Assembly (NCBI GenBank): GCA_024277705.1
Contig: JAJRUQ010000088.1
Coordinates: forward strand, 1 to 40,374
Length of the DNA stretch: 40,374 bases
Direction: 5' to 3'
Source: Gammaproteobacteria bacterium
Lineage (GTDB): Bacteria > Pseudomonadota > Gammaproteobacteria > SZUA-229
In this document: positions 3,275 to 37,633 of the stretch, piece after piece
How the letters are laid out: the number at the start of each line of letters is the position of its first letter
Numbering within the stretch: position 1 is the stretch's first letter
The notes under the pieces: generated by a model
The model's database searches: none
Told to the model about the DNA's origin: nothing
The model's input: the letters and a program-made list of their open reading frames with translations, nothing else
Program-made: the position numbers and the translations under genes

Positions 3275-3781
3275 CTATAAATGGTTGTGATTGCCATACT
3301 TTTCATTATCACTAACTACCTTATTTATTTTTTTTATCAATGTTTGTATATGACCGGAATTAGCTGAAAAATCAGCCTTGCCTTTCCGTGACTTTGATTT
3401 TATATACAGGGAGGATTTATTATTATCCAGCGCGCTCACATGAACAAACACATCATCCTCAAACAAAAACAGGCGGGTACGCACAATCAGGCTCACATTC
3501 AAACTGTCACTATCATGACTGACAATATTCCAGCCCAGCTCACTAGCCGCCAGTAATACATGTTTAAATAATTGATCTGCATCTATCTGATACACCGGCG
3601 TGCTTAATTCTTTAAACTCATGATCGTCTGCCGTTACCGCAATATTTTTTGTTAAAAAAACAGTTAGCCGTTTACTAAAACCCGGCGCTTCTAACAGGTT
3701 TGCCTGATTAATAAATAACGTAAACGAGATCGCACTAATAATAAAGATAATAATAAATATTACGATTTTTAGAATTGTCAT
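3275..3781 (-). CDS. DUF1499-like membrane-anchored protein
   Basis: N-terminal TM; VYQIDADQLFKHVLLAASELGWNIVSHD...SLYIKSKSRKGKADFSANSGHIQTLIKKI resembles the DUF1499 pattern. Confidence 0.6.
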   Translation of the reverse strand: MTILKIVIFIIIFIISAISFTLFINQANLLEAPGFSKRLTVFLTKNIAVTADDHEFKELSTPVYQIDADQLFKHVLLAASELGWNIVSHDSDSLNVSLIVRTRLFLFEDDVFVHVSALDNNKSSLYIKSKSRKGKADFSANSGHIQTLIKKINKVVSDNEKYGNHNHL

Positions 3782-4188: not shown

Positions 4189-4217
4189 TTGACAGCAGGT
4201 GATATTTAAATCACTAT
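4189..4217 (+). promoter_or_regulatory. Candidate sigma70 promoter of the eamA leader
   Basis: TTGACA (4189-4194) - 17 nt - CACTAT (4212-4217). Confidence 0.4.
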
Positions 4218-4239
4218 CAGACGATGAAAAATTCAACAT

Positions 4240-4374
4240 GCCACACTGCAGCGGCTCTTATGGTTGTGCGTATCCTCTGGAAACGCAGTTTGTGGCCTGT
4301 TGTCTATCGATTATAATAATAACTATAAAAATAGATTACCTCAAAGGCCACTGCAAACACAGCGGCCTTTTTTT
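4240..4374 (+). promoter_or_regulatory. Candidate attenuator/riboswitch-like leader upstream of the EamA exporter (or terminated sRNA)
   Basis: Mutually exclusive pairings: 4240-4249 with 4285-4296; 4288-4298 (GTTTGTGGCCT) with 4345-4357 (AGGCCAC-tgc-AAAC); 4343-4353 with 4360-4370 (terminator). Confidence 0.45.
4343..4374 (+). terminator. Rho-independent terminator
   Basis: AAAGGCCaCTG-caaaca-CAGcGGCCTTT followed by TTTT. Confidence 0.8.
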
Positions 4375-4473
4375 ATGTCCATGAATGGACGGTATTGCGC
4401 AAAGAGCCAGGGAGGCGGTGCGCTATGTCCATGGATGGACGGTATTGCGCAAAGAGCCAGGGAGGCGGTGCAC
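4374..4473. repeat. Two tandem copies of a 50-bp repeat
   Basis: tatgtccatg[a/g]atggacggtattgcgcaaagagccagggaggcggtgc[g/a]c at 4374-4423 and 4424-4473; contains the GTCCAT..ATGGAC dyad. Confidence 0.9.
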
Positions 4474-4537
4474 CCGGCCGCGATAGCACCACCTGAATAT
4501 TATAAATACAAACACACACTAACAAAGGAGCAAAAAA

Positions 4538-5443
4538 GTGTCAGTCACCATATCATATCTTACGGTAATACTTATCTGGAGTACTACACCGTTAGCCATT
4601 CAGTGGAGTGGCCATGATGTTGGCTTTCAATTCGGCGTTGCTACACGTATGGCCATCGGTCTGCTGGCCCTGATATTATTGCTGCGTCTGATGAAAATCG
4701 AACTCCCCTGGCACAGAAAAGCCCGCCGTATCTATCTTATAAGCGGAATCAGCCTGTATATTGCAATGAGTTTTGTTTACTGGGCGGCGCAATATATTCC
4801 CAGTGGCTGGATCTCCGTAGTGTTTGGTTTTTCCCCGATACTGACCAGTGTCATGGCCAGCCTGATACTCAAGGATCAGACCTTATCAGGCACCCGCTTG
4901 CTCGGTATGCTGACAGGTTTTAGCGGCCTGATTTTTATCTTTATCGAAGGCTTATCCATATCAACCATGGTTATGTTAGGTATTGCGGCAACCACTATCA
5001 GTGCAGCCACCCAGTCTCTGGGTTCGGTTTTACTGAAACAGCAGCAACCGAATTTTCATCCGATTGCAATTACGGCGGGCAGTCTTGTTATTGCGCTACC
5101 TTTATTTATATTCAATCTGCTACTTGCCGGTGGCCTGCCGGAGACAATACCGGTAAAGTCGGCACTGTCGATATTATATCTTGGCTTGATAGGCTCCGCA
5201 GTTGGCTTTCCACTGTATTTTTATCTGCTGAAAAATCTCAGTCCGGAGCGGGTCGCCATCATTACCCTGATAACCCCGGTAACTGCTTTATTACTGGGCT
5301 CATATTTAAACGATGAATATATCAGCAGTAAAGTCTGGCTGGGCACAGCACTAATCCTGAGCGGACTGGCTGTTTATGAATATGGCAAATATTTACCGCA
5401 TGTAAAAAAGTGGAAAATCCGCTGGTTACAAAAACCATTGTGA
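4538..5443 (+). CDS. EamA/DMT-family exporter
   Basis: 301 aa, about 10 hydrophobic segments, internal two-fold EamA-like pattern (VYWAAQYIPSGWISVVFGFSPILTSVMASLILKDQ; VGFPLYFYLLKNLSPERVAIITLITPVTALLLG). Confidence 0.85.
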   Translation: MSVTISYLTVILIWSTTPLAIQWSGHDVGFQFGVATRMAIGLLALILLLRLMKIELPWHRKARRIYLISGISLYIAMSFVYWAAQYIPSGWISVVFGFSPILTSVMASLILKDQTLSGTRLLGMLTGFSGLIFIFIEGLSISTMVMLGIAATTISAATQSLGSVLLKQQQPNFHPIAITAGSLVIALPLFIFNLLLAGGLPETIPVKSALSILYLGLIGSAVGFPLYFYLLKNLSPERVAIITLITPVTALLLGSYLNDEYISSKVWLGTALILSGLAVYEYGKYLPHVKKWKIRWLQKPL

Positions 5444-33806: not shown

Positions 33807-36800
33807 CTAAAGTGCCTCATTGTTATCATACGCATCAATACATTCTGTATCGGCAGGGAAATCGATGTTGGTATCACCATCATTATCGACACCGTCTGAA
33901 CACTGCGGATTCACGCCTTCAAACGGGTCAATCGCACTGGAACAACCGGTGTCAGCCAGATCAATAGCACCATCACCGTCATTGTCGAGTCCGTCATTAC
34001 ATTGTGGATCCGGCGCCTCGCTACGGTCATTGGCACTTGAACAGCCGGCATCAGCCAGATCGATATTGCCATCACTATCATTATCCAGACCATCATTACA
34101 TTCTGACAATACAGGTGCGTTATCATCGGACTCATTATTATCCCGCTCATCGTTGCAACCGGGGTCATCAGGATAATCCACAAGACCATCATTATCATTA
34201 TCCAGTGCATCAAAACAATGCGGCTCAGGGAATTCCGTCATATCGGTATCGGAAGAGCAACCCGGATCATCCGGATAGTCAACAAAACCATCACCATCAC
34301 TATCAACCCCGTCACTGCATTCAGCGACACTTTCAAATAAATCGTCTGCACTTAAACAGCCAACATCATCCGGAAAGTCGACAAAACCATCACCGTCATT
34401 ATCGATACCATCAGAACATTCAATATCACTGGCCTGTGAACCGGACTCATCAGTATCCTGCACACTGCTGCAATCAGGATCAGAACCATAATCAATCAGC
34501 CCGTCACCATCATTGTCAAAACCATCACTGCACTGCGGACTGCCTTCACTGGAGTCAGTCAATGAGTAACAACCCAGATCCGCCGGATAATCAATTTTGC
34601 CATCATTGTCATTATCAAAACCATCACTACACTGTGGATTCTGTTCACTGGAATCGGCCAGTGAATAACAGCCAATATCAACCGGGTAATCCGTCTTGCC
34701 ATCGCCGTCATTATCAATACCGTCACTGCATTGCGGATTTTCTTCGGTAGTATCTGTCAGCGAAGAGCAACCCACATCAGCCGGATAATCTGTCTTGCCA
34801 TCACCATCATTATCAAAGCCATCACTGCACTGCTGATTTTCTTCAGTAGAATCTGACGCACTGCCACAACCAATATCTGCCGGATAATCAATTGCGCCAT
34901 CACCGTCATTATCAATACCATCACTGCATTGAGGATTTTCTTCGGTAGTATCGGTTGCACTGCTGCAACCAACGTCTGCCGGATAATCAATAGCGCCGTC
35001 AGCATCATTATCAATACCATCGTTGCATTGGGCATTCACCTCGCTGGTATCGTCTAAACCGTAACAGCCGAGATCCGCCGGGTAGTCAATCTTGCCATCA
35101 CCATCATTATCAAGGCCATCACTACATTGTGCATTAACTTCACTGCTATCGGTCAGTGAATAGCAACCAGTATCCGCAGGGTAATCAATTTTGCCATCTC
35201 CATCATTATCAATACCATCACTGCATTGAGGATTTTCTTCGGTAGTATCGGTTGCACTGCTGCAACCAACGTCTGCCGGATAATCAATAGCGCCGTCACC
35301 GTCATTATCAACACCATCACTGCATTTGGCATTCGCTTCATTGGTATCGACAAAACCATAACATCCAGGGTCAGCCGGGTAATCAATTTTGCCATCGCCA
35401 TCATTATCAACACCATCACTGCATTGAGGATTTTCTTCGGTAGAATCGGTTGCACTGCTGCAACCAACGTCTGCCGGATAATCAATAGCACCATCACCGT
35501 CATTATCAATACCATCACTGCATTTGGCATTCTCTTCGCTGGTATCGTCTAAACCGTAACAACCGAGGTCAGCCGGATAGTCTGTCTTGCCATCATCATC
35601 ATTATCGAGGCCATCACTACATTGTGCATTAACTTCATCGCCATCGGACAATGAAGAGCAGCCGGTATCCGCCGGGTAATCAATTTTGCCATCTCCATCA
35701 TTATCAAGGCCATCACTGCATTGAGGATTTTCTTCGGTAGTATCGGTTGCACTGCTGCAACCAACGTCTGCCGGATAATCAATAGCGCCATCACCGTCAT
35801 TATCAATACCGTCACTGCACTGAGAATTTTCCTCGGTGGTATCGTCTAAACCATAACAGCCGGTATCAGCCGGATAATCAATATTGCCATCACCATCGTT
35901 ATCGATACCATCGTTACATTGTGCGTTGACTTCATCACTATCCGACAACGAATAGCAGCCGACATCTGCCGGATAGTCAATCTTACCGTCAGCGTCATTA
36001 TCAATACCGTCATTGCATTGAGGATTCTCCTCGCTGGTATCGGCTAAACCATAACAACCGGGGTCTGCCGGATAATCAATATCACCATCACCATCGTTAT
36101 CAATGCCATCGTTACATTGTGCGTTAACTTCATTGCTATCTGTCAACGAAATACAGCCAACATCTGCCGGATAATCAATATCCCCGTCACCATCATTATC
36201 AACACCATCACTGCATTGAGGATTTTCTTCGTTAGAATCGGTTGCACTGCTGCAGCCAATGTCAGCGGGATAATCAATCTTGCCATCGCTATCATTATCA
36301 ATACCATCATTGCATTGAGCATTGATTTCATTAGCATCCAGCAAGGAAGTGCAACCGGTATCCGCCGGATAGTCGATTTTTGTATCACCGTCATTATCGA
36401 TACCGTCATTGCACTGCGGATTTTCTTCGGTAGAATCCGTAATACTGGAACAACCGGGGTCTGCAGGAAAATCAATATCCCCGTCACCATCATTATCGAT
36501 ACCATCATTACAAAGAGCGTTGGTTTCACTCGAGTCCTGCAAAGAAGAACAACCGGTATCAGCCGGATAATCAATGTCCCCGTCGCCATCATTATCGATA
36601 CCGTCATTACATTGCGGATTTTCTTCACTGGAATCCTCCGACCCGTAACAACCGGGATCAGCAGGAAAATCCGTCAGCCCGTCACTGTCGTTGTCCAGTC
36701 CATCAGCACAGCGCTGTGCATACTCGGAACTGTCCGTCAGACTGGTACAGTCCGTATCCGCCGGATAATCGACATCCCCGTCACCGTCATTATCAACAGC

Positions 36801-37211
36801 GTCATTACACATGGCATTGTCTTCGGTTGTGTCCATCGGGCTGGAGCAACCGGGGTCAGCAGGGTAATCGGTCAGGCCATCACTATCATTGTCAACGCCA
36901 TCACCGCATTCACGGGGATACTCACTGTTACTGGTAGCGCTGGTGCAGTTAAGATCCTGCGGGAAGTCGGTATTACCGTCACCATCATTATCCACGCCAT
37001 CTGAACACTGCGGTAAAAGATTTTCTGCACTGGATAAAGCATTGTTCAAACAACCCGGATCATCCAGATCGACAAGACCGTCACTATCGTTGTCCTTACC
37101 ATCAGAGCAAACAAAAGCGCTTAATTGCAAACCACTGTTGGTTGTTGTATCACCACAGCCTGCAGTAAACAGCATGGCACCTAGCAGCAGGCCGGTAAGT
37201 ATTGATTTCAT
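33807..37211 (-). CDS. Asp/Cys-rich repeat lipoprotein (33 tandem repeats of about 33 aa)
   Basis: Start chosen at MKSILTGLLLGAMLFTAGC (lipobox-like TAGC); repeats of consensus QCSDGIDNDGDGKIDYPADxGCSSxTDxxEENP with DxDxDG calcium-loop-like cores. Confidence 0.88.
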   Translation of the reverse strand: MKSILTGLLLGAMLFTAGCGDTTTNSGLQLSAFVCSDGKDNDSDGLVDLDDPGCLNNALSSAENLLPQCSDGVDNDGDGNTDFPQDLNCTSATSNSEYPRECGDGVDNDSDGLTDYPADPGCSSPMDTTEDNAMCNDAVDNDGDGDVDYPADTDCTSLTDSSEYAQRCADGLDNDSDGLTDFPADPGCYGSEDSSEENPQCNDGIDNDGDGDIDYPADTGCSSLQDSSETNALCNDGIDNDGDGDIDFPADPGCSSITDSTEENPQCNDGIDNDGDTKIDYPADTGCTSLLDANEINAQCNDGIDNDSDGKIDYPADIGCSSATDSNEENPQCSDGVDNDGDGDIDYPADVGCISLTDSNEVNAQCNDGIDNDGDGDIDYPADPGCYGLADTSEENPQCNDGIDNDADGKIDYPADVGCYSLSDSDEVNAQCNDGIDNDGDGNIDYPADTGCYGLDDTTEENSQCSDGIDNDGDGAIDYPADVGCSSATDTTEENPQCSDGLDNDGDGKIDYPADTGCSSLSDGDEVNAQCSDGLDNDDDGKTDYPADLGCYGLDDTSEENAKCSDGIDNDGDGAIDYPADVGCSSATDSTEENPQCSDGVDNDGDGKIDYPADPGCYGFVDTNEANAKCSDGVDNDGDGAIDYPADVGCSSATDTTEENPQCSDGIDNDGDGKIDYPADTGCYSLTDSSEVNAQCSDGLDNDGDGKIDYPADLGCYGLDDTSEVNAQCNDGIDNDADGAIDYPADVGCSSATDTTEENPQCSDGIDNDGDGAIDYPADIGCGSASDSTEENQQCSDGFDNDGDGKTDYPADVGCSSLTDTTEENPQCSDGIDNDGDGKTDYPVDIGCYSLADSSEQNPQCSDGFDNDNDGKIDYPADLGCYSLTDSSEGSPQCSDGFDNDGDGLIDYGSDPDCSSVQDTDESGSQASDIECSDGIDNDGDGFVDFPDDVGCLSADDLFESVAECSDGVDSDGDGFVDYPDDPGCSSDTDMTEFPEPHCFDALDNDNDGLVDYPDDPGCNDERDNNESDDNAPVLSECNDGLDNDSDGNIDLADAGCSSANDRSEAPDPQCNDGLDNDGDGAIDLADTGCSSAIDPFEGVNPQCSDGVDNDGDTNIDFPADTECIDAYDNNEAL

Positions 37212-37633
37212 GGTACTGCCTGATTTCAAAAAAAATGCAGCTGGTGACATCATCGGTGTGTGAATAACAAATTTAGCCAGATTATATGCCCTAGCATGAT
37301 AAATGAAGGAATCAAGAAAATACAATAACTTAAAGCGTGCAGTAAACGGCAGCTGCAAAAGATGTATACCTGTTTTTTTAATAGAACCCCTGTTAGGGAT
37401 ACAACAATTTCCCCAAAATCGCAGCATGACAATCCCTCACTTTTTATAAGTGAACATCACTTAACATCCATAGTAAGAATTGACCTTAATAAGTCAAGTA
37501 ATAATAATCAATTATTGATCCTGTTTTCGGGCTTCACAGCATTTTCAACCTCAGCCTTTATATTTATAAACGTTTGAGGCAATATGTTTATCTGGAGTCC
37601 TGTAAAATTCACCGACATAAGAGAGGCTATATC

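Follow-up and report, generated by a model that had tools for sequence, protein, structure and literature searches.

The locus examined here raises the question of why the gene for a transporter of the EamA family should be preceded by a short transcribed leader with alternative structures, which signal such a leader would read, and in which direction the transporter would then work. The window, by which we mean the whole stretch of 40,374 nucleotides that was analysed, carries the leader and the transporter gene on its forward strand, with the following features.

4189..4194, forward strand: -35 box TTGACA, read from the sequence, with TTGAC unchanged in all 41 aligned leaders of the family
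4212..4217, forward strand: -10 box CACTAT after a spacer of 17 nt, read from the sequence, with identical spacing in the family
4224..4316, forward strand: leader peptide ORF of 30 aa plus stop, predicted to be leaderless, with an in-frame ORF equally placed in relatives
4240..4245, forward strand: segment 1 (GCCACA), which pairs with 4291-4296 in the MFE fold when no ribosome covers segment 1
4278..4280, forward strand: control Trp codon (codon 19), with the highest in-frame excess of the 64 codons
4292..4298, forward strand: segment 2 (GTGGCCT), 5' arm of the antiterminator, which pairs with 4345-4351 and co-varies with segment 3
4343..4353, forward strand: segment 3, common to antiterminator and terminator
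4343..4374, forward strand: intrinsic terminator, segment 3 paired with segment 4 and followed by T7 (RNAalifold consensus)
~4376..4475, forward strand: two 50-bp direct repeats, outside the switch, between the terminator and the EamA gene
4538..5443, forward strand: EamA-family (DMT) transporter, the gene under predicted control (Pfam PF00892, E 2.6e-31), whose orthologs follow the leader class-wide

The promoter TTGACA-N17-CACTAT that the first-pass annotation had read at this site is borne out at 4189-4194 and 4212-4217, and the -10 A and the ATG of the leader ORF are also invariant in the 41 aligned family leaders. The same annotation had placed a short ORF at 4260-4316, of which the stop stands; position 4260 is an in-frame internal Met, and a start there was dropped for the ATG at 4224, the start kept in relatives. 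The ORF from ATG 4224 to the stop at 4314-4316 encodes MKNSTCHTAAALMVVRILWKRSLWPVVYRL*. In relatives the ATG lies mostly 35-37 nt, and in the family 35-36 nt, from the first T of TTGACA, and leader peptides of ~26-36 codons, following TTGAC(A) and a -10 box, are found in nearly all upstream regions of the family. The lack of a clear Shine-Dalgarno sequence, recorded earlier, is real and has a simple explanation, because the ATG is located ~6 nt past the -10 box and the RNA is expected to start at or near it. The window RNA is hence probably leaderless, with transcription starting at ATG 4224 or within a base or two, the position of the RNA 5' end at the leader AUG, as in trpL-type leaders, being predicted from promoter spacing.

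The terminator in the window is not adjacent to the EamA gene, as a tandem pair of the 50-bp repeat (TGTCCATGGATGGACGGTATTGCGCAAAGAGCC...GGCGGTGC) intervenes; the genome contains 22 or more copies of this repeat, most of them paired at a distance of 50-52 bp, and the repeat is also found between terminator and EamA in the sister species and is absent there outside the genus. Upstream, in the same orientation as the leader, are the genes for an HTH regulator and a HipA-like kinase (278-1924), and a DUF1499 gene (3275-3781, minus strand) neighbours the leader; hipA and the DUF1499 gene remain beside the leader in the sister species. Elsewhere in the window, at 33807-37427 on the minus strand, is the gene for a 1206-aa protein with many near-identical CNDGIDNDGDGxIDYPAD... 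repeats.

Relatives of the leader were first found by DNA search, after which EamA orthologs were collected from the genus and the family and their upstream regions read. Nearly every family genome shows the order promoter, ATG, peptide, terminator and EamA gene, which recurs across dozens of genera in the class and also in a second class. A covariance model built from 41 leaders (R1) gave, in the family, one full-length match in nearly each genome having an EamA ortholog, and these matches were upstream of EamA wherever checked (new loci with enough downstream sequence). Class-wide, R1 had matches at E<=1e-6 in 57 of 369 genomes, many of the genomes compared being incomplete assemblies, and the same EamA protein (MSVPAAYxGVILIWSTTPLAIKWS) is encoded downstream in 51 of the 56 loci fetched, counts that overstate the independent events because related sequences are not independent. 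In most genomes other than that of the window the terminator stops 13-60 nt upstream of EamA, and at the fetched loci the EamA gene lies mostly 13-85 nt downstream of the leader match. Since R1 itself contains TGG, a second set was chosen by protein alone; it comprises another 27 EamA orthologs, almost all of them in genomes where R1 had no match at this locus, and 23 scorable leaders. In a second class, a class-wide covariance model (R2) retrieved the same EamA together with its leader, and each of the 15 leaders there contains W. EamA paralogs or orthologs that have no leader are present at L118, L119 and L113 (genomes G028, G036 and G035), and G028 and G036 each have one EamA copy with the leader and one without.

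The feature of the leader peptide that these comparisons single out is one codon. TGG is found in the leader frame in 106 of 116 leaders, versus 38 and 3 in the other two frames, which is the largest in-frame excess among all 64 codons in this set; in the protein-selected set an in-frame TGG is at the expected place in 21 of the 23 scorable leaders. Insertions and deletions between the ATG and the Trp codon in the family leaders are multiples of three. Because the peptide residues flanking W are variable across leaders, it is the codon and not a peptide motif that is conserved. Of the two Trp codons that the first-pass annotation had pointed out, the first (4278-4280) is the conserved one; the second (4293-4295) is ruled out as a sensor, as it sits in segment 2 and is unconserved, and it exists because segment 2 has to read GUGGCC. 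In textbook trp leaders at least two Trp codons follow one another, and a run of control codons is a feature of most amino-acid attenuators, albeit no strict requirement; the leaders described here have a single conserved Trp codon in place of a run of two or more, and a single codon may sense weakly. The codon is missing in a few leaders (those of G336, G137, G079, G066 and G069). Two of these family leaders, L095 (G069) and L125 (G066), have lost the Trp codon and kept the terminator and are natural tests of decay; in L095 the leader ATG has also changed to CTG.

The three RNA pairings first described for this leader are all found in the window. The terminator at 4343-4374 is present, with arms AAAGGCCACTG/CAGCGGCCTTT and T7, as is the pairing of segments 2 and 3, where 4292-4298 (GTGGCCT) and 4345-4351 (AGGCCAC) form a duplex of -14.1 kcal/mol. 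The window leader folds better than its dinucleotide shuffles (z -3.45, with 1 of 200 equally good). Among 42 sequences the RNAalifold consensus of the terminator has 10 pairs, 5 of them with changes on both sides, and over all 42 family leaders RNAalifold found no shared structure beyond the terminator, because segments 1 and 2 slide against each other. Segment pairing was scored instead by per-sequence duplex energies and permutation tests. For 99 distinct sequences the energy of segment 2 with its cognate segment 3 is -14.4 kcal/mol, versus -12.35 +- 0.20 with permuted partners (0/5000), and this excess holds although segment 3 pairs with segment 4 as well. The pairing of segments 1 and 2, claimed in the first reading, is present in the window (4240-4245, GCCACA, with 4291-4296, TGTGGC) and is only slightly above the shuffled level elsewhere: segment 2 is paired upstream at 0.59-0.71 across leaders, versus 0.51-0.59 with shuffled upstream sequence, so that the 1:2 stem is weakly supported as a feature common to the leaders. 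When covariation and conservation of segments 1 and 2 were checked across relatives, as the first-pass annotation had proposed, segment 2 held up clearly and segment 1 weakly.

The spacing of these elements is of importance for how they could work. From the first base of TGG to the start of segment 2 the median distance is 15 nt; from the end of segment 2 to the stop codon it is again 15 nt, and from the stop to segment 3 it is 28 nt. A ribosome whose A site holds TGG covers ~12-13 nt downstream, and segment 2 is thus expected to be free when the ribosome stalls at this codon and covered when it reaches the stop. In folding with a stalled ribosome masked, 2:3 pairing is favoured before segment 4 is made; with a ribosome masked at the stop, 3:4 pairing remains. 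When the stalled ribosome is masked and all of the RNA is available, the minimum in the window is still 3:4, and the switch must therefore act during transcription, as known attenuators do. The locus in this way combines a leader ORF between promoter and terminator, an in-frame control codon placed to leave segment 2 free on stalling, and 2:3 and 3:4 stems that exclude each other and show co-variation.

These features very probably identify the leader as a ribosome-mediated transcription attenuator that reads the charging of tRNA-Trp and controls the EamA transporter. We infer the start site, the stalling, the read-through and the role of EamA in the supply of Trp (or a Trp-related compound) from sequence, and the proposed course of events is as follows. 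RNA polymerase would start at or beside ATG 4224 and a ribosome would initiate on the leaderless RNA. When charged tRNA-Trp is scarce, the ribosome would stall with TGG 4278 in its A site, covering segment 1 and leaving segment 2 (from 4292) just past its front edge, so that segment 2 would capture segment 3 on its emergence, no terminator would form and eamA would be transcribed. When Trp is plentiful, the ribosome would reach the stop at 4314 and hide segment 2, and 3:4 pairing would lead to termination at ~4374; if there is no translation, the 1:2 stem would form and termination would be expected too. The first-pass annotation had left the control of read-through to either a ligand or translation. 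The ORF, its frame, the Trp codon, the 2:3/3:4 co-variation and the spacing speak for translation; a ligand finds no counterpart in the form of a conserved aptamer.

The codons of related leaders bear upon the signal that is read. In several proteobacterial groups model R2 also retrieves leaderless leaders ahead of leuA, argD, thrA and asd (L278, L285, L330-L349, L205 and others), the identities of thrA, leuA and argD being confirmed by NCBIfam and that of asd being recognised by sequence only. They resemble the EamA leader in the distance from promoter to ATG, in the length of the peptide and in the layout of the terminator, and differ in their control codons, which fit the pathway in each case (runs of Leu for leuA, Arg for argD, Ile/Thr for thrA and Thr/Lys for asd) and are not Trp. 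As the codons of these sister leaders name the pathway, the EamA leader is taken to read Trp. The leuA, argD, thrA and asd leaders look like a common, little-described class of leaderless attenuators. In the genus of the window, trpE (L300-L310) has its own leader peptide, ending in HWRW, ~110-150 nt upstream and probably leaderless, and no intrinsic terminator was seen in this leader; because TCCAGACA can pair with TGTCTGGA immediately before the trpE start codon and a terminator is lacking, translational attenuation is suggested for trpE. Leaders of the same type as that of EamA, with the peptides MWHRTYLC and MWRHTYLC, are also found at L191 (G287) and L204 (G172) before a small secreted-looking protein family (IDYTxRNYT...), one member of which had no NCBIfam match.

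The direction of transport is the less certain part of this account. The annotation of the gene as an EamA exporter is right as regards EamA (Pfam PF00892); export is not established by it, since EamA proteins transport in either direction and the logic of the leader fits uptake better. The protein reaches the cut-off of no NCBIfam equivalog, that of the aromatic amino acid exporter YddG included, and a PDB sequence search with it gave no match. A parallel is offered by Bacillus subtilis, in which ycbK encodes an EamA-like protein. TRAP represses trpP and ycbK there at high Trp (PMC13170310). The window gene would be switched on by low Trp, in parallel to TRAP control of these genes, and EamA would then most likely take up Trp or a precursor; induction of a Trp exporter by low Trp would be odd.

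The explanation that survives best beside Trp uptake shares its sensing mechanism, and with it all of the evidence for sensing, and differs in the role of the transporter: EamA would export TrpRS inhibitors or toxic Trp analogues, and the leader would sense the resulting failure of tRNA-Trp charging. Many characterised EamA/DMT proteins are exporters, and the best-scoring NCBIfam relatives include the exporters YedA and YddG, all under cut-off. The spread of leader and transporter over two classes suggests instead a housekeeping role, and the logic parallels that of Trp supply genes such as the TRAP-controlled trpP and ycbK, making this explanation unlikely, if a serious one. It is improbable that the leader senses ribosome-blocking antibiotics, a slowed ribosome freeing segment 2 and turning on EamA as an efflux pump. 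The stall-to-ON logic would be identical, the gene is of an exporter type, RLR-like stretches precede the Trp codon in some leaders of the genus, and the bmrB leader of BmrCD in B. subtilis is a precedent (PMC4191407); yet what is conserved is a single codon, kept at constant spacing among freely varying neighbours, and no peptide motif, and the sister leuA, argD and thrA leaders have pathway codons. More improbable still is that the attenuated transcript acts mainly in trans, as a small RNA or leader peptide: a discrete RNA of ~150 nt, closed by a strong terminator, is expected, and rnTrpL and peTrpL of Sinorhizobium meliloti are leaderless attenuator products that act in trans (PMC7298713), but a cis role is favoured by the 2:3 antiterminator and by the almost constant association with EamA, and the peptide is unconserved save for W; the RNA or peptide may act in trans in addition. 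A riboswitch in which a small molecule shifts 2:3 versus 3:4 pairing independently of translation has the mutually exclusive stems in its favour and is the least probable explanation, since the leader has no Rfam match, the Rfam search and leader alignments revealed no conserved ligand-binding fold, no aptamer-like block is conserved besides ATG, TGG and terminator, and ATG-TGG indels keep the frame.

The mechanism proposed here for the EamA gene is of a known kind, represented by trp attenuation, leaderless trpL and the attenuation of a transporter by bmrB. At gathering thresholds Rfam gave no match for the window leader, which scores 17.7 bits against Trp_leader (RF00513; gathering score 41), and the reading as a known Rfam riboswitch or leader was rejected for lack of a match. 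The E. coli trp operon leader (RF00513) shares the 1:2 / 2:3 / 3:4 logic and a stall codon upstream of segment 2, whereas the EamA leader lacks an SD-led start and tandem Trp codons and belongs to a different gene. The S. meliloti trpL leader (rnTrpL/peTrpL), which is leaderless, has 14 aa and precedes trpE(G) (PMC7298713), shares the leaderless ORF, Trp control and mutually exclusive antiterminator and terminator, while the leader described here has ~30 aa, one conserved Trp at ~codon 19 and an EamA transporter gene. The bmrB leader of B. subtilis bmrCD likewise places a transporter gene under ribosome-mediated transcription attenuation but differs in the ABC transporter, the antibiotic signal and codons that are not amino-acid specific (PMC4191407), and B. 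subtilis ycbK under TRAP is likewise a transporter-like gene lowered at high Trp but by protein-mediated translational repression and in a different phylum (PMC13170310). The literature searched, outside of which most subscription papers lie, gave no description of this leader, of a leader-peptide attenuator before an EamA gene, or of control of such a gene by Trp attenuation.

We tentatively propose, with somewhat less than even confidence, that these leaders belong to a class of leaderless leader-peptide attenuators that is widespread in Pseudomonadota and apparently not yet described, the Trp branch of which marks an orphan EamA family as an uptake system for tryptophan (or a Trp precursor) switched by a single Trp codon. 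Leaderless attenuation is known from a few cases, among them S. meliloti trpL and actinobacterial leaders. Ribosome-mediated attenuation on leaderless RNA would then be a broad pattern in proteobacteria, whose Leu, Arg, Thr and Trp versions are reached by one covariance model, and the mechanistic question would arise of whether a lone Trp codon on such an RNA can give useful control. For an uncharacterised EamA family in dozens of genera, the leader makes tryptophan limitation the likely signal and thereby points to a likely class of substrate; if the proposal is true, this family would be a dedicated amino-acid importer under attenuation.
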